From Cochleicola gelatinilyticus (GTDB lineage Bacteria; Bacteroidota; Bacteroidia; Flavobacteriales; Flavobacteriaceae): a DNA stretch of 64,000 bases. The stretch is from positions 248,001 through 312,000 of the forward strand of contig NZ_LRXL01000037.1 in NCBI RefSeq assembly GCF_001637325.1, written 5' to 3'. The position numbers were made by a program, and so were the translations under genes. Below the pieces are notes generated by a model, which saw nothing but the letters and a program-made list of their open reading frames with translations, was not told where the DNA came from and searched no databases. Below, one piece after another: positions 23,824 to 30,976 of the stretch. How positions within the stretch are numbered: position 1 is the stretch's first letter; each line of letters starts with the position of its first letter.

Positions 23824-25437
23824 ATGAAAACAATTTTTACTTTACTCGTAATATGCTGCATTGCTACTAGCAGTCTTTCGCAAAACGGTATCAATTACAA
23901 AGCTGTTGTTAAGGATGGTGACGGTAACATTGTAGCAAACGATTTAATTGCGGTTCGATTTACTATTAATGAAGGTGCTCCTGAGGGTACAACAGTTTAT
24001 CAAGAAGATCATTCGCCGAGCACAGACGAAAATGGTCTTGTAATAATAAATATTGGAGAGGGGAATCCATCGATAAATTTATTTGAGGATATAGACTGGG
24101 CAGCTAATCCTCATTTTCTGAATGTTCAAATTAATACAGGCGATGGGCTAACCGATATGGGAACAACCCAATTTAAATCGGTGCCCTATGCTCTTTCGGC
24201 ACCCGATACATCTAAATGGGAAGATAATGAAAATGGAATTTACCGACTTAACGGTAATGTCGGTATAGGTACAAGCAATCCAATTAGAAAGTTCGATGTG
24301 TATAATGAAGATGAAGATGTTACTGCACTATTCCAAAACTTTTATGCCGGGAATCAGGCGAAATATGGAATTTATAATTCATTAACCCCCGCAGGTACTT
24401 CAACAAAATATGGCTTTTACAATACAGTAGGGGCGACTAACTCTACGAGTTCAGCGTTTGGAATTTACAATACTTTATCCACTACGGGAGCAACTGGAAA
24501 TATGTACGGTATTTATTCTTTAGTTTCTGGTAATGGTACAGGATCTCATTATGCGCTTTATGGATATGCCACAGGTGCAGGTAACTACGGGGTTTATGCC
24601 TATAATAATAGCCCAGATGGTTATGCGGCTTATTTCAATGGAAATGTAAGAGCTACCCAAAGGTTGGTTGTGGGAACAGGTGTGCCTCTCGATGGTCTTA
24701 CCATTGCAAGTAAAGATCTGTTCCTAAGAAATACAAATTATACTACAATTAGAGGGAGATATTCTGGATCAGGAACTGGTGGTGAAATCGAACTGTATAT
24801 GGGAAATAAGCCTTCTCCTACCAATAGTGAGAGTGGGTTTAGAACACTTCAATTACAGGCATCTGAAACTTCAAGCACAGGTTCACAAATAAATTTGTAT
24901 AAGGCCGACGGATCATTGGGTATTTCCTTAGATGGAGATTTCTTAGGATTAGGACGTGTCATCACTCAGGAAATTGAAGTTACCGGAGGAGATCTTGCCG
25001 AGTTCTTTAAAGTCAATCCAGGAAATGCTCACAATAACCAATTAAGACCTGGAGTGTTGTTGTCAATCGATGAAAGCAATCCCGGTGACATGATCATAAC
25101 CACCGAAGCATACGATAGAAAAATCGCAGGAATTATCAGTGGAGCAAATGGAGTTAAACCCGGATTACTCATGGGTGGAAGTCTTGCTGAAGAAGAGGAA
25201 AGAGCAATAGTACAAGCAAATCAATTTCCAATTGCACTTGCTGGTAAAGTATATGTTTATGCGAACACCGAAAACGGAACCATAAAGGCAGGGGATATGC
25301 TCACATCGTCTTCGATTCCCGGTTATGCAATGAAAGTAACTGATTACGAAAGAGCCCAAGGAGCCATCATTGGTAAAGCCATGACTAGTTTAGAATCGGG
25401 TAGCGGTTTTGTATTGGTTCTCGTAACCTTAAAATAA
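23824..25437 (+). CDS. Secreted fibre-like protein with GINYKA-type N-terminal domain (operon gene 1)
   Basis: A 537-aa protein of unknown function with a signal peptide (MKTIFTLLVICCIATSSLSQ). Residues about 20-130 form a domain (NGINYKAVVKDGDGNIVAND...HFLNVQINTGDGLTDMG) shared with the next two genes. Next come a VGIGTSNP segment as found in tail-fibre-like proteins, about six imperfect repeats around Y/F-G-I/F/V-Y-N, and a C-terminal module (about 390-537, IAGIISGANGVKPG... GAIIGKAMTSLESGSGFVLVLVTLK) seen in many uncharacterised secreted proteins. No catalytic motif and no T9SS sorting domain. First gene of a five-gene unit. Confidence 0.8.
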   Translation: MKTIFTLLVICCIATSSLSQNGINYKAVVKDGDGNIVANDLIAVRFTINEGAPEGTTVYQEDHSPSTDENGLVIINIGEGNPSINLFEDIDWAANPHFLNVQINTGDGLTDMGTTQFKSVPYALSAPDTSKWEDNENGIYRLNGNVGIGTSNPIRKFDVYNEDEDVTALFQNFYAGNQAKYGIYNSLTPAGTSTKYGFYNTVGATNSTSSAFGIYNTLSTTGATGNMYGIYSLVSGNGTGSHYALYGYATGAGNYGVYAYNNSPDGYAAYFNGNVRATQRLVVGTGVPLDGLTIASKDLFLRNTNYTTIRGRYSGSGTGGEIELYMGNKPSPTNSESGFRTLQLQASETSSTGSQINLYKADGSLGISLDGDFLGLGRVITQEIEVTGGDLAEFFKVNPGNAHNNQLRPGVLLSIDESNPGDMIITTEAYDRKIAGIISGANGVKPGLLMGGSLAEEEERAIVQANQFPIALAGKVYVYANTENGTIKAGDMLTSSSIPGYAMKVTDYERAQGAIIGKAMTSLESGSGFVLVLVTLK

Positions 25438-25469
25438 ATTCAGTTCATTAATACAAAAAACTTGCGATT

Positions 25470-26456
25470 ATGAGAATGAGATTAACTTTAATAGGTGCGA
25501 TTTTAATCTGCGGTATCTGCTTTTCGCAGCAAGGCATTAATTACAAAGCCGTTGTAAAAGACGGTAGCGGAAACATTGTCGCCAACGATCTTATCGCTGT
25601 TCAATTCACCATACTGGATGGAGCAACCACAGTGTACGGAGAAACTCACACCCCAACGACCAATGAGAATGGAATCATCATTTTAAATATCGGCGAAGGG
25701 GCACCAATTGGAGCAGGAGACTTTTCGACCATCGATTGGAGCAGTGCAAATCACTTTCTTAACGTGCAGATTAATACCGGTGACGGATTAACAGACATGG
25801 GAACTACGGCATTTAAAACAGTTCCCTACGCTAAGGTCGCAGATGTCGCCAAATCACTCGAAAATCCTCTTTGGATAAAAAATAGTGCAGATAGAATTTC
25901 CTATAACGCTGGAAATGTAGGGGTAGGAGATTCAAATCCTTTAAGTCCTTTCTCAGTGATTCAGTCAACTGGAATTGAAAATACCATGCGCTTGGAAAGT
26001 CGGGACCATCCGGCAGGAAAAGATTTATTAGAGTTACAGATACCATCAGGCTCGCCGGCTACCTCTCAATTTATAGAAATGCAAAATGGTAGTGAAATTG
26101 TTGCTGCGGTCAACGCTGATGGCTCGGCTCGATTTAAATCTGTGCAATTTGAAGATAATTCGGTTCAAACCACCGCAGCTATCGGGCCGCGGGCATTTGG
26201 TTTTATCCAGTCTAGTGGGAACATCACTTCAGGATCAGGCAATTTCACTGTAGAATGGGTTGCAGCATTAAATCGTTATGAAATAACCATATCTGGTATT
26301 AATTATTTCTATCGCAATTTTTCAACGTTTATAACAACAGTTACTTCTAATGTTGTAAGAAGTCGGATAACCAGCAACCTCGGAAAAATAGTGGTGTATT
26401 TATACAATGCATCTGGAGCACCACTACAAGGCGAATTTCAATTTATAACCTTTTAA
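25470..26456 (+). CDS. Secreted protein with GINYKA-type N-terminal domain (operon gene 2)
   Basis: A 328-aa protein with a signal peptide ending in CFSQ. Its N-terminal domain (about residues 20-125) is clearly homologous to that of the neighbours on both sides: GINYKAVVKDGSGNIVAND and HFLNVQINTGDGLTDMG are almost unchanged. A VGVGDSNP segment follows, then a separate C-terminal beta-rich module (about 245-328) beginning RAFGFIQSSGNITSGSGNF, resembling the C-terminal heads of fibre proteins. No enzyme motif or sorting domain was seen. It lies 32 bases after gene 1. Function unknown. Confidence 0.78.
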   Translation: MRMRLTLIGAILICGICFSQQGINYKAVVKDGSGNIVANDLIAVQFTILDGATTVYGETHTPTTNENGIIILNIGEGAPIGAGDFSTIDWSSANHFLNVQINTGDGLTDMGTTAFKTVPYAKVADVAKSLENPLWIKNSADRISYNAGNVGVGDSNPLSPFSVIQSTGIENTMRLESRDHPAGKDLLELQIPSGSPATSQFIEMQNGSEIVAAVNADGSARFKSVQFEDNSVQTTAAIGPRAFGFIQSSGNITSGSGNFTVEWVAALNRYEITISGINYFYRNFSTFITTVTSNVVRSRITSNLGKIVVYLYNASGAPLQGEFQFITF

Positions 26457-26488
26457 TACGCTTTATAAACCAACTAAAAGTTACCTCT

Positions 26489-27730
26489 ATGAAAACCAAC
26501 CTCACATTTTTTTTCTTGTTCATTTTTTCTGCTATAACCGTAGCCCAGCAAGGAATTAACTACAAAGCTATTGTTAAAGACGGAAGCGGAAGCATAGTCG
26601 CCAATGATCTTATTCAAGTGCAATTCGCAATTCTTGAAGGAGCGACCTCAGTATATTCTGAAACGCATTCACCAACAACAGATGCCAACGGACTCATTAT
26701 TCTCAATATTGGGGAAGGGACTCCCATTACCGGAACCTTCGACGCCATCGACTGGGCGAACGATGCACATTTTCTTAATGTACAGATAAATACAGGCGAC
26801 GGATTAACTGATATGGGAACCACCGAGTTTAAGACAGTTCCCTATGCCATTACATCGGGAGATGCTGTGTTTAAAAAAGACGGTGATAACGCCTTTAAAG
26901 AAGATGGGAATATAGGTATTGGAACTGCAGATCCGACGGAACAACTTCATATTAATGATGATACCGATGCCAGAATGCTGTTAAGTGCTAATAATACATT
27001 TAACAGAACTTCGATGCGATTGGAAAACGGAGATGCCGGAGGCACTCATTCTTATTTTAAAATCGAAAACTTTAACGATCAACTTCGTATTGGGGTCGAT
27101 AGTGATTTAACCGCAGGAACAGGTTATAATGATATAGTAACTATTTCAACTTCGGGTAATATTACTACAGATGGTGCATTACGATTGGGAACTGGACCTC
27201 TAATATCTGAATTTTCAACAGACGGAACACTCTCTGGGAACAGTTCAAATGCAGTTCCAACAGAGAGTGCGGTTAAAACTTATGTGGACAATATGGTAGG
27301 AACAGAAGAAAAGAGTATTATTATTCCTGCCACCGCTTTTACAGGTAATACTAACGTAAACCCGATAATCCTACAAAATTTCGGTGCGTTCGCTCAAAAA
27401 ACGACTGGAAATGGTTTTTTAGTGGCGCCCTTAATATTACCTGAAGGCTCCACGGTCACGTCGATGCGGTTTTTCTTAAGGGATGGAACGTATTTAGGAA
27501 ATGAAAACTTGCAAGCTTCCTTATTGAGAGGTCTGCGAACTTCCACCATTTTTTCGATTCAATTTTCTGTATCCACTTTTGGTGGATCTACCTCTGGGTT
27601 TATAGAAACCTATGATACAGACTTTACCATTCTCAACGATTATCAATATGTTATTAGAATATCACCAACTTCAACCTGGACACATCCAGATATGGGAGTT
27701 TGTGCAGTAGAAGTGACCTACATTGATTAA
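26489..27730 (+). CDS. Secreted protein with GINYKA-type N-terminal domain (operon gene 3)
   Basis: A 413-aa protein with a signal peptide (MKTNLTFFFLFIFSAITVAQ). The N-terminal domain (about residues 20-125) is the third copy of the one in genes 1 and 2. It is followed by NIGIGTADPTEQLHIND, a fibre-type middle part, a short helical AVPTESAVKTYVDNMVG segment (such segments often precede trimeric heads), and a C-terminal domain (about 275-413) unlike those of genes 1 and 2. It lies 32 bases after gene 2. Function unknown. Confidence 0.78.
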   Translation: MKTNLTFFFLFIFSAITVAQQGINYKAIVKDGSGSIVANDLIQVQFAILEGATSVYSETHSPTTDANGLIILNIGEGTPITGTFDAIDWANDAHFLNVQINTGDGLTDMGTTEFKTVPYAITSGDAVFKKDGDNAFKEDGNIGIGTADPTEQLHINDDTDARMLLSANNTFNRTSMRLENGDAGGTHSYFKIENFNDQLRIGVDSDLTAGTGYNDIVTISTSGNITTDGALRLGTGPLISEFSTDGTLSGNSSNAVPTESAVKTYVDNMVGTEEKSIIIPATAFTGNTNVNPIILQNFGAFAQKTTGNGFLVAPLILPEGSTVTSMRFFLRDGTYLGNENLQASLLRGLRTSTIFSIQFSVSTFGGSTSGFIETYDTDFTILNDYQYVIRISPTSTWTHPDMGVCAVEVTYID

Positions 27731-27756
27731 TTAACGAAATTATTAAAACTACTAAA

Positions 27757-28620
27757 ATGAAAATACAAATCACATTATTCAGCATATTTCTATTCTCTTT
27801 CTTCGGAAATGCACAGAGCATCGAAAAATTCAGCATCGATAGCGGAGGCGCTTCCGAAGCAAACGGAAACATTCAAATTCTTTACACCTTAGGGGAAGTG
27901 AATGTACAGGAACTTAGTGCAGGAAATATTCAGATTTCTGAAGGGTTTATCACCTCGGTTTCGTTACAACTTTCTATAAACCCTAAAGTCTTTTTGCAAG
28001 GTCCTCTTTTGGCGCCAACAACACCAAGTCTTATGAATGATGATCTACGTATCGCGACGGTGATCCCCACTACAAGTCCGTACCCCGATGGATTAACCTG
28101 TAATGCTTCAGTTTTTACACCAACAGGCCCTAATGCGATTGTTGATTGGGTTTTTGTAGAATTACGAAATGCTTCAGACAGAACGAATGTAATTGAAGCG
28201 CGATCAGCCTTACTACAAAGAGATGGCGATGTGGTTGATGTTGACGGTACCTCCGCAGTATCATTTACATCGGCTGCTGCAAGCTATTATGTTTTAGTAA
28301 ATCACCGAAATCACTTAGGGGTTCTAAGTGCAAATCCGATAGCGATTTTAGGAACGACAGCTGTAGATCTTAGTTCAAATCCTTCAGATGTATTTGGAGG
28401 CACTAATGCGGTAGCCAATATGGGCGGCGGGAACTATGCAATGTTCGGAGGGGATGTCAACGGCAATGGGCAGGTTCAGAATAGTGATCTTACGGCGATT
28501 GTACTACTATTGGGAAGTTCGGGATATTCCGAAGGAGACCTCAATTTAAATGGTCAAGTTCAAAACAGCGACATCAACAACACTGGAAATCCTAATCTAG
28601 GAAAAGGAGAACAATATTAA
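27757..28620 (+). CDS. Secreted protein with dockerin-like C-terminus (operon gene 4)
   Basis: A 287-aa protein with a signal peptide (MKIQITLFSIFLFSFFGNAQ). A short first domain (IQILYTLGEVNVQELSAGNIQISEGFI) is a module often found near the start of T9SS-dependent proteins. The middle part (about residues 85-210) is beta-rich. The end has two Ca-binding-like loops (GDVNGNGQVQNSDL and GDLNLNGQVQNSDIN) of dockerin type, then PNLGKGEQY. No catalytic motif. It sits 26 bases after gene 3 and 40 before gene 5. A role in protein-protein docking on the cell surface is possible but inferred. Confidence 0.75.
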   Translation: MKIQITLFSIFLFSFFGNAQSIEKFSIDSGGASEANGNIQILYTLGEVNVQELSAGNIQISEGFITSVSLQLSINPKVFLQGPLLAPTTPSLMNDDLRIATVIPTTSPYPDGLTCNASVFTPTGPNAIVDWVFVELRNASDRTNVIEARSALLQRDGDVVDVDGTSAVSFTSAAASYYVLVNHRNHLGVLSANPIAILGTTAVDLSSNPSDVFGGTNAVANMGGGNYAMFGGDVNGNGQVQNSDLTAIVLLLGSSGYSEGDLNLNGQVQNSDINNTGNPNLGKGEQY

Positions 28621-28660
28621 TACTCATTTAAATACATCACTAACCTTAAAAACTAATTTT

Positions 28661-30919
28661 ATGAAAACTAAAATACTTGTAACATTAATAGTGCTGTGCA
28701 GCTTTGGGCTGGCGGCTCAAGACATCCATTTTACGATGGATAATGCCCGAATAACAAATGACGGGGTCGACGACTTTTATGAAGCCGATATTTATATGGA
28801 AAGTAGTATAGATTTTAAACTGGGATCGGGACAGATCTACTTTACCTATAACGAAGCTGCCTTTGGTCCTAATATTTCAGACAATGGTAATTTTGATTAT
28901 TTGCAACCAGATGGTTCGATCTTAGCGGAAGCTTATGGGTTTCCAGCGTACAAAGATTTTATTCAGAATGATAATACCACTTTTAGAGTTTCAACTGCCT
29001 TTCAACAAGGAGTGAGCAGTGGAACCATTACAGAGAACAATGTTACTGCTATGCCAAAGCATTTGTTCAGTATTAAAATTCGCTATATTGATGCGGCACA
29101 GGATCCAACTATTTGTTTTGAAACACAACCCGTTTTTCTAGACCAGTTTTACACTGCCTGCGGACCAGAAACAACTGGATTTCCCAATTGTACTAATGAG
29201 CCTGGTATTCAGTTATTCAATGATACATTCGACTGTGCTGGAGCAACTTTACCTGCTGGTTGTGCCGGTGTTACTACCTATACAATCGCGGGAGGGTGGG
29301 ACAACGGAACTCCCGATTCCACAATGGAAGCTGTCATTTCTGAAAACCTTTCAACAGGCGGTCTTTCTATTGAAGCATGTTCCCTAACGGTTATGGAAGG
29401 AGCTATTTTAACAATACAAACAGGAGATTATCTAAGAACTGAGAATGATATTATCGTAGATGGAGATTTACGTGTTGCTCATGGAGCCAGTGTAGTGCAG
29501 GTTGAGAATAGTGCTGTTGTAATAAACAATGGTTCGATTTTGGTTCAGAAAGATTTAGATAATATTGAGAACAGAGGCTTTGCGTTAGCATCAAGTCCTA
29601 TGACCACTGAGACACAAGCTGCTTTTGGAGCACCGATTCAATTCAGAAATCATATCACAGCAAATTTTAGTCCGAACGAAGATGTGGAAGCGAATTTTCC
29701 AGGCGCTGGAAACTTTGCTGATGACAATGGAAATAACTGGATGACTTACGATGGAATGATGAATCCAGGGGAAGGCTATCTTGTCATGCCCCAACAAACG
29801 GCAGAAATTCCTGCACCGGCAGATTATACTGCAAACTTTGATGATGGAACTCTCAACAACGGAATCATATCTTTTGAAGTTGAATACAACGGAACCCAAA
29901 ACGCAAGTATGAATGTGTTAGGAAATCCATATCCTTCTGCAATCGATGCCGACCTATTTATAGCAGAAAACGAGATGATCGAAGGCTTGTATTTTTGGGA
30001 GCACCTTACCTCACCAAGTACCACTTATGAAGGTTACAATCCAAGTAATTATAGTATGGGAGATATCTCCATGTATAGTACGGTAATGGGAGGTAATCCT
30101 GCAGCAAACGGTGGTGCTACACCTAATGGATTTGTACCATCGGGAGAAGGTTTTGCGGTAAAGGCACTTGTGGCGGGATCGGCAGAATTTAATAATGCAA
30201 TGCGTGTAACTGGAAATAATGATGTTTCAGGACGTCTATCTTTAGTGGAGCGTGATCGAGTTTGGCTCAATGTTTTTAACGAGACCCATGGTTTGGGGAG
30301 TACTTCATTACTTGGTTTTTCTGAGATTACTTCGGAAGGATTCGATCCAGGCGCTGATATTATACGGTTAGCTACTCCGGTATCTTTATATCAAGAGTTG
30401 GAAACAGGGGAACAATTGGGAATTCAGGGACGTGAAGCATTTACTTCGGAAGCGATTGTGCCTTTCAGTTTTGCAACTCAAGTGGAAACATTAGAATCGT
30501 ACCGTATATCGATCCATGATTTAGATGGAACTTCTATATCTGAAGCTACTGTGTACCTCATCGATCATACCGCAGACATCATTACAAATTTAAATGAACA
30601 ATCGTATGCATTTACGGCTACAGCAGGAACGTACAGCAATCGATTCTCTATAGTATTTGAAGATAGAACATTAGGAGTGTCTAGTGGTACTTCTGAAGCT
30701 GTTTTGATATATCCAAATCCAACCCAAGATATCTTATTTATTAAGACACCGAATACGCAAATTAAAACGGTTGAAGTATTCGACATTCGGGGAAGAAAAG
30801 TGCAACAGAACTCTAATGTGATAGATCAACTCAATCTTTCTAATTTAAAATCGGCAGTGTATTTTGTAAAGATCACGACCGACACCGAAACCCTTATTAA
30901 ACGAATTATAAAAGAATAA
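28661..30919 (+). CDS. T9SS-exported surface protein with C-terminal sorting domain (operon gene 5)
   Basis: A 752-aa protein with a signal peptide (MKTKILVTLIVLCSFGLAAQ). The N-terminal part (about residues 20-140) resembles a module that precedes adhesin regions. It is followed by beta-repeat sequence with GDYLRTENDIIVDGDLRVAHGA (filament-type strands) and long Asn/Gly-rich regions including NVLGNPYPSAIDADLFI. The last 75 residues are a T9SS type A sorting domain (IYPNPTQDILFI ... GRKVQQ ... VYFVKITTDTETLIKRII). It is therefore probably exported across the outer membrane and attached to the surface. A terminator follows. No enzyme motif. Confidence 0.85.
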   Translation: MKTKILVTLIVLCSFGLAAQDIHFTMDNARITNDGVDDFYEADIYMESSIDFKLGSGQIYFTYNEAAFGPNISDNGNFDYLQPDGSILAEAYGFPAYKDFIQNDNTTFRVSTAFQQGVSSGTITENNVTAMPKHLFSIKIRYIDAAQDPTICFETQPVFLDQFYTACGPETTGFPNCTNEPGIQLFNDTFDCAGATLPAGCAGVTTYTIAGGWDNGTPDSTMEAVISENLSTGGLSIEACSLTVMEGAILTIQTGDYLRTENDIIVDGDLRVAHGASVVQVENSAVVINNGSILVQKDLDNIENRGFALASSPMTTETQAAFGAPIQFRNHITANFSPNEDVEANFPGAGNFADDNGNNWMTYDGMMNPGEGYLVMPQQTAEIPAPADYTANFDDGTLNNGIISFEVEYNGTQNASMNVLGNPYPSAIDADLFIAENEMIEGLYFWEHLTSPSTTYEGYNPSNYSMGDISMYSTVMGGNPAANGGATPNGFVPSGEGFAVKALVAGSAEFNNAMRVTGNNDVSGRLSLVERDRVWLNVFNETHGLGSTSLLGFSEITSEGFDPGADIIRLATPVSLYQELETGEQLGIQGREAFTSEAIVPFSFATQVETLESYRISIHDLDGTSISEATVYLIDHTADIITNLNEQSYAFTATAGTYSNRFSIVFEDRTLGVSSGTSEAVLIYPNPTQDILFIKTPNTQIKTVEVFDIRGRKVQQNSNVIDQLNLSNLKSAVYFVKITTDTETLIKRIIKE

Positions 30920-30940
30920 TAGGTGGTTATTTAAATGAGG

Positions 30941-30976
30941 AAACCGCTATCGGAAGTAATTCTGGTAGCGGTTTTA
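30941..30976 (+). terminator. Rho-independent terminator of the five-gene secreted-protein operon
   Basis: Ten-bp stem CCGCTATCGG / CTGGTAGCGG (with two or three G-T pairs) and a flanking A run and TTTTATTTT tail, just after gene 5. No comparable hairpin lies between the five genes, supporting one transcript. Confidence 0.75.

Follow-up and report, generated by a model that had tools for sequence, protein, structure and literature searches.

We propose that five consecutive genes in the window (the whole 64,000-nucleotide stretch of Cochleicola gelatinilyticus DNA that was analysed) encode a three-tier, non-covalent surface display, in which fibre proteins would be held by an adapter and the adapter, through a dockerin-cohesin contact, by a T9SS anchor; we consider this reading fairly probable. 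We refer to genes 1-3 as H1-H3 (fibres), to gene 4 as D (adapter) and to gene 5 as C (anchor). According to this model, the product of gene 5 would be exported by the T9SS, with its sorting domain attaching it to the outer membrane, and the cohesin-fold domain at its N-terminus (C1) would act as a socket into which the C-terminal X-like and dockerin-like module of D would plug, probably with Ca2+. At the other end of D, the DN domain would hold the common base of the fibres from genes 1-3, which are probable trimers like the mosaic adhesive trimers (MAT) of Bdellovibrio, with their unrelated C-terminal tips pointing outward. The tips would bind different targets, be they glycans, cells or surfaces, and swapping the tip while keeping the base would yield several specificities on one holder. 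An earlier note on this DNA had described a multi-part surface structure whose other members may attach to the sole protein bearing a sorting domain or travel by another route. Such a structure is supported by our results, with the sorting domain on gene 5 only and the other proteins probably attached to it, and the cohesin-dockerin-like pair improves on the earlier view by offering an explanation for the attachment to the last protein.

The five ORFs follow one another on the plus strand across positions 23824-30919, separated by intergenic gaps of 32, 32, 26 and 40 bp, and their coordinates bear out the co-directional series with gaps of 26-40 bp described earlier. The single terminator said to close the series was recovered as a stem followed by a U-tract (Table 1), an element that was absent from the list returned by a consensus scan for terminators. 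All five proteins bear a signal peptide ending before Gln20, which matches in 5 of 5 cases the Gln that the Bacteroidetes Q-rule predicts after the signal peptide (PMC5837995). Gene 5, already taken to be T9SS-sorted, displays the features of a T9SS type A cargo, with PF18962 above the cut-off, a TIGR04183 match and a Q-rule signal peptide. The host genome encodes a T9SS PorU-type sortase and SprA and contains 57 T9SS sorting-domain matches. Across the whole genome we counted three H base domains, one D module and one C1 domain, all of which lie inside the operon. We also considered a cellulosome and rejected it, the operon having no enzyme or CBM domain and the genome having one D and one C1.

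Table 1. Features of the five-gene operon and its terminator (positions are those of the window).
Feature	Position	Strand	Evidence
H1, 537-aa putative fibre protein, long tip region	23824..25437	+	NF053851 Bdello_MAT_N E 9e-6, below cut-off
H1 putative base domain	23884-24201	+	
H2, 328-aa putative fibre protein, short tip region	25470..26456	+	NF053851 E 7e-7, below cut-off
H2 putative base domain	25530-25841	+	
H3, 413-aa putative fibre protein	26489..27730	+	NF053851 E 2e-8, below cut-off
H3 putative base domain	26549-26854	+	
H3 phage tail-fibre-like stretch	27191-27334	+	phrog_9851 tail fiber E 5e-9
D, 287-aa putative adapter: signal peptide, DN domain, X-like Ig domain, dockerin-like loop pair	27757..28620	+	
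DN domain (D residues 20-67), proposed fibre dock	27814..27957	+	
X-like Ig domain (D residues ~69-231)	27961..28449	+	AF2 pLDDT mostly above 85
Dockerin-like duplicated loops of D, DVNGNGQVQNSD and DLNLNGQVQNSD, end NLGKGEQY	28453..28617	+	PF00404, profile search
C, 752-aa putative anchor: cohesin-fold domain, middle region, T9SS type A sorting domain	28661..30919	+	
C1, predicted cohesin-fold domain	28721..29251	+	AF2, Foldseek, VIA
T9SS type A C-terminal sorting domain of C	30707..30910	+	PF18962 7e-16, TIGR04183 7e-16
Intrinsic terminator, 16-bp stem and U-tract	30940..30975	+	fold z -6.4

The cohesin identity of the N-terminal domain of gene 5 was proposed from sequence, ahead of the structure model. 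Searched against the PDB with Foldseek, the AlphaFold (AF2) model of C1 (pLDDT 88, pTM 0.85) returned 13 matches at E<=0.001, all 13 of them cohesins (best E 7.5e-5), and comparison by VIA gave 50 rows, again 50 of 50 cohesins, headed by 3l8q_C (Z 11.7, rmsd 3.8, 147 aligned). By prediction, C1 adopts the cohesin beta-sandwich fold. The Pfam cohesin model gave no match in nine C1 relatives at E<=10, and the C1 profile matched no PDB sequence; because C1 is devoid of a Pfam cohesin match, we name it a cohesin-fold domain and not a Pfam cohesin. One relative, encoded on the minus strand (L112:3818-11602), is a 2594-aa protein that resembles a scaffoldin, with four C1 domains, three of which score equally with a period of 939 bp, along with Cu-binding_MopE motifs and a T9SS tail; it adjoins a D-C1-T9SS fusion protein.

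The earlier description of gene 4 as dockerin-like agrees with the duplicated loops and with a match of D to PF00404 (Dockerin_1) at 17.3 bits, under the cut-off of 22.9. At E<=0.1 the same model matched 18 of 52 D relatives, and the loop duplication is visible in the GKGEQ-type relatives. The top PDB matches of the D profile, 2b59_B and 5k39_B, are type II X-dockerins, matched weakly (E 0.013), and the best Foldseek match of the D model, likewise weak, is 5k39_B (E 0.0098); by VIA, X-dockerins did not rise above background (Z 4.4-4.6, rmsd about 4, about 104 aligned). The AF2 model of D has high confidence in the Ig-like domain and low confidence in the dockerin part. After its second loop, D in the window reads INNTGNPN, and nearly all its relatives are hydrophobic at the TG position (INNLLNPN type). 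Given these residues in place of hydrophobic ones, the second dockerin helix of this particular D may be weak or degenerate, and the two unusual residues are a reason for caution in trusting a dockerin-cohesin model.

The relatives of D were collected from 79 loci, and a census covered 397 family genomes. Across the 79 loci, the D module also forms the C-terminal end of proteins 600-3200 aa long, after which a small T9SS-tailed protein of ~270 aa often follows. These long dockerin-tailed proteins carry M60-like peptidase, FG-GAP, leucine-rich or sortilin-type repeats (L121:4980-9107, L123, L117, L006:9874-12327, L012, L004:9988-13824), a variety which indicates that the dockerin-like tail serves very different cargo.

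The pairing of D with a downstream partner was analysed by subtype, G-type D modules ending in GKGEQ and LP-type modules in xLP. Among the 397 genomes, G-type D occurs in 13, C1 in 15 and both in 13 (Fisher 1e-22), and LP-type D occurs in 29, a second anchor family named C2 in 26 and both in 26 (Fisher 1e-37), values that ignore relatedness and gene adjacency and are inflated because adjacent genes are co-inherited anyway; the 15 C1 genomes represent 15 genera. Subtype matching and gene fusions are independent of these values. C1 is encoded directly after G-type D in 18 of 25 cases and C2 directly after LP-type D in 37 of 44, with 0 crossed pairs, and four relatives have D, C1 and the T9SS tail fused into one protein. 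From this adjacency, fusion and subtype pairing, we infer that D and C1 bind each other as dockerin and cohesin. Alternatively, C1 could be a generic beta-sandwich and the D module a generic Ca-binding tail, the two being regulatory neighbours that do not bind each other. Matches to beta-sandwiches are indeed common and the VIA Z score of the X-like domain is only about 4.5, but such generic modules hardly account for a C1 fold list whose top consists purely of cohesins, for subtypes that pair without crossing, for the four D-C1-T9SS fusions or for a protein in which C1 is repeated four-fold, and we judge this explanation quite improbable.

The C2 proteins are made of about 170 aa plus a T9SS tail and lie directly downstream of LP-type D (L011, L018, L027, L030, L060 and the 26 census genomes). 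Comparison of the C1 and C2 profiles gave no detectable homology. C2 may be a second cohesin subtype. One census genome (G319) has six D matches and one detected C1, so several dockerin-tailed proteins may share a single anchor.

D and H might cross the outer membrane on their own or be carried by gene 5. As neither D nor H has a sorting signal, C could be an export carrier to which D, and H via D, would bind in the periplasm before riding piggy-back through the T9SS. This is a variant of our preferred explanation and both can hold at once. None of the 133 D proteins outside the fusions and none of the 31 H proteins has a T9SS type A tail, as the carrier role would predict; in the fusions, D precedes C and the tail, and a single tail would then export both. 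Many genomes, however, have H without D or C, and tail types of the T9SS other than type A were covered only by Pfam scans of 19 proteins; we find the carrier role rather unlikely.

The three H proteins have in common an N-terminal domain of ~105 residues following the signal peptide, with 61-77% amino acid identity, that ends near residue 125. Alignments between the three genes are confined to about bases 53-369 by blastn, and those between the proteins to residues 1 to about 160-190 by blastp, in agreement with the earlier claim of one N-terminal domain common to three genes with unrelated C-termini. No common relative was found for the C-terminal parts of H1-H3, the last part of which shares nothing among the three. 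The MAT N-domain model NF053851 scored 34 bits on H3 against a cut-off of 60, with only its first half matched (positions to about 78 of 162), and it was matched by 22 of 24 H relatives with a best E of 4e-13. These matches suggest that H1-H3 are most likely fibre proteins related to the MAT of Bdellovibrio. Because of the homology to the constant N-domain and variable tips of MAT, the shared domain is most likely the fibre base and the variable parts the tips. The earlier note had named these parts head and tails: its division into a shared domain and variable ends stands, but its naming is to be corrected, since homology places the "head" at the base of the fibre and the "tails" at its tips.

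In a Pfam scan, H relatives with the same neighbours were found to carry YadA-head repeats, Peptidase_S74 and C1q/TNF tips, all of which come from trimeric proteins; by analogy, the H fibres are probably trimeric, and adhesion would be their function. Neither H1 and H3 as queries nor a profile of the H base domain retrieved anything meaningful from PDB sequences. Two candidate assignments were discarded, Pfam Big_1 for the base domains, whose score was far below the cut-off, and Peptidase_G2 (PF11962) for the H1 tip, which had no match anywhere in the genome. The H base domain is present in 164 of the 397 family genomes.

The link between fibres and adapter was traced through gene order and domain content. 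At least 16 of the 31 short D (up to 400 aa) in the census lie directly after an H gene versus 4 of the 61 long D, and the gap between H and short D is 3-7 bp in several loci. Of 26 short D, 20 have the DN domain, against 0 of 92 long D. Sixteen of the 21 DN proteins are H-adjacent versus 8 of the 92 long D, an association that is in part due to the DN profile being seeded from H-adjacent D (its eight seeds were picked beside H genes; of the other 13 DN proteins, eight adjoin H). H is present in 36 of 42 genomes with D versus 128 of 355 genomes without D. Being almost exclusive to H-linked dockerins, the DN domain is likely the fibre dock, and the putative contact between DN and fibre would join the fibres to the adapter.

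The same gene order, H-D-C, was found elsewhere in Flavobacteriaceae, in four loci (L005, L011, L018, L116) and in about 12 census genomes, one of which has four H genes. The earlier view is contradicted in part by the H family, whose occurrence in the 128 genomes without D shows that the modules exist independently as well and implies that H does not need the D-C holder to get to the surface or to work. In two loci (G008:C64:51025-60448 and L129) a fibre gene comes after the D-C pair; the gene order is therefore not fixed. One may then ask whether the D-C pair is genuine and displays D only, the H proteins being mere co-expressed neighbours with a surface route of their own. The genomes that have H without D speak in its favour, as does the presence of the D module at the C-terminus of long proteins unrelated to H. 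This alternative is nevertheless difficult to reconcile with short D following H so often and at times so closely, with a DN domain that is special to short D and absent from long D, and with the enrichment of H in D genomes, and we deem it unlikely. We favour the three-tier arrangement, with the fibres docked on D.

The pairing of a dockerin plug with a cohesin socket is best known from cellulose-degrading bacteria. Cohesins, dockerins, MAT-like fibres and T9SS anchoring are each already known. A literature search for a diverged cohesin-dockerin pair that holds fibres, with matched subtypes, found none among the papers it covered, and a search on T9SS and cohesins found no T9SS-anchored cohesin of Bacteroidota among the papers naming both. 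Bacteroidetes genomes, or their cellulolytic members, have been stated to be without cohesins and dockerins (PMC5831590; PMC6247017). It is conceivable, at somewhat less than even chances in our estimation, that Bacteroidota own a general, unrecognised T9SS cohesin-dockerin system with several mutually exclusive subtypes, in which dockerin-tailed proteins lacking any sorting signal are exported or held by dedicated T9SS-sorted cohesin partners, the system being used for adhesive fibres and for very large surface proteins. If so, the Bacteroidota pair would have been overlooked because its sequences diverged. Such a system would explain how numerous large surface proteins of flavobacteria are held although they lack a sorting signal, and its pairs, each matched by subtype, would provide new orthogonal protein connectors. 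It would also be a candidate answer to a question of the MAT field, namely what holds the conserved fibre base.

The putative D-C pair resembles the cellulosomal type II cohesin/X-dockerin pair in the predicted cohesin fold of C1, its location on a putative surface anchor protein and the existence of a multi-cohesin relative, and D may resemble a type II X-dockerin in that a predicted Ig-like domain precedes its two dockerin-like loops. The D-C pair differs from the cellulosomal pair in its sequence identity of about 10%, the absence of a Pfam cohesin match, the T9SS anchor and the cargo, which would consist here of adhesive fibres or giant surface proteins, in an operon without cellulases or CBMs. 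A scaffoldin-like protein of Cloacimonadota combines tandem cohesins with a T9SS-type C-terminal domain from which surface anchoring was inferred (PMC8542988), and here too a conserved C-terminal domain would anchor cohesins at the cell surface; that case, however, belongs to another phylum and involves detectable modules and enzymes, whereas the modules described here are missed by sequence models and would have fibres as cargo. Gene 5 is like other T9SS type A cargo in its sorting domain, in a genome with SprA and a PorU-type sortase, but T9SS cargo normally has its own sorting domain and four of the five proteins here are without one. In the Bdellovibrio MAT proteins, a constant N-domain is thought to lie near the cell and the adhesive tips are variable (PMC10769870). 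In the H proteins, likewise, the signal peptide is immediately followed by a conserved beta-rich N-domain and the C-terminal tips vary, and their wider family includes S74, TNF-like tips and fibre repeats as MAT do. Unlike MAT, they match only the first half of the N-domain model, below the cut-off, and while the surface partner of MAT is unknown, the H proteins would come with a dedicated adapter and anchor.
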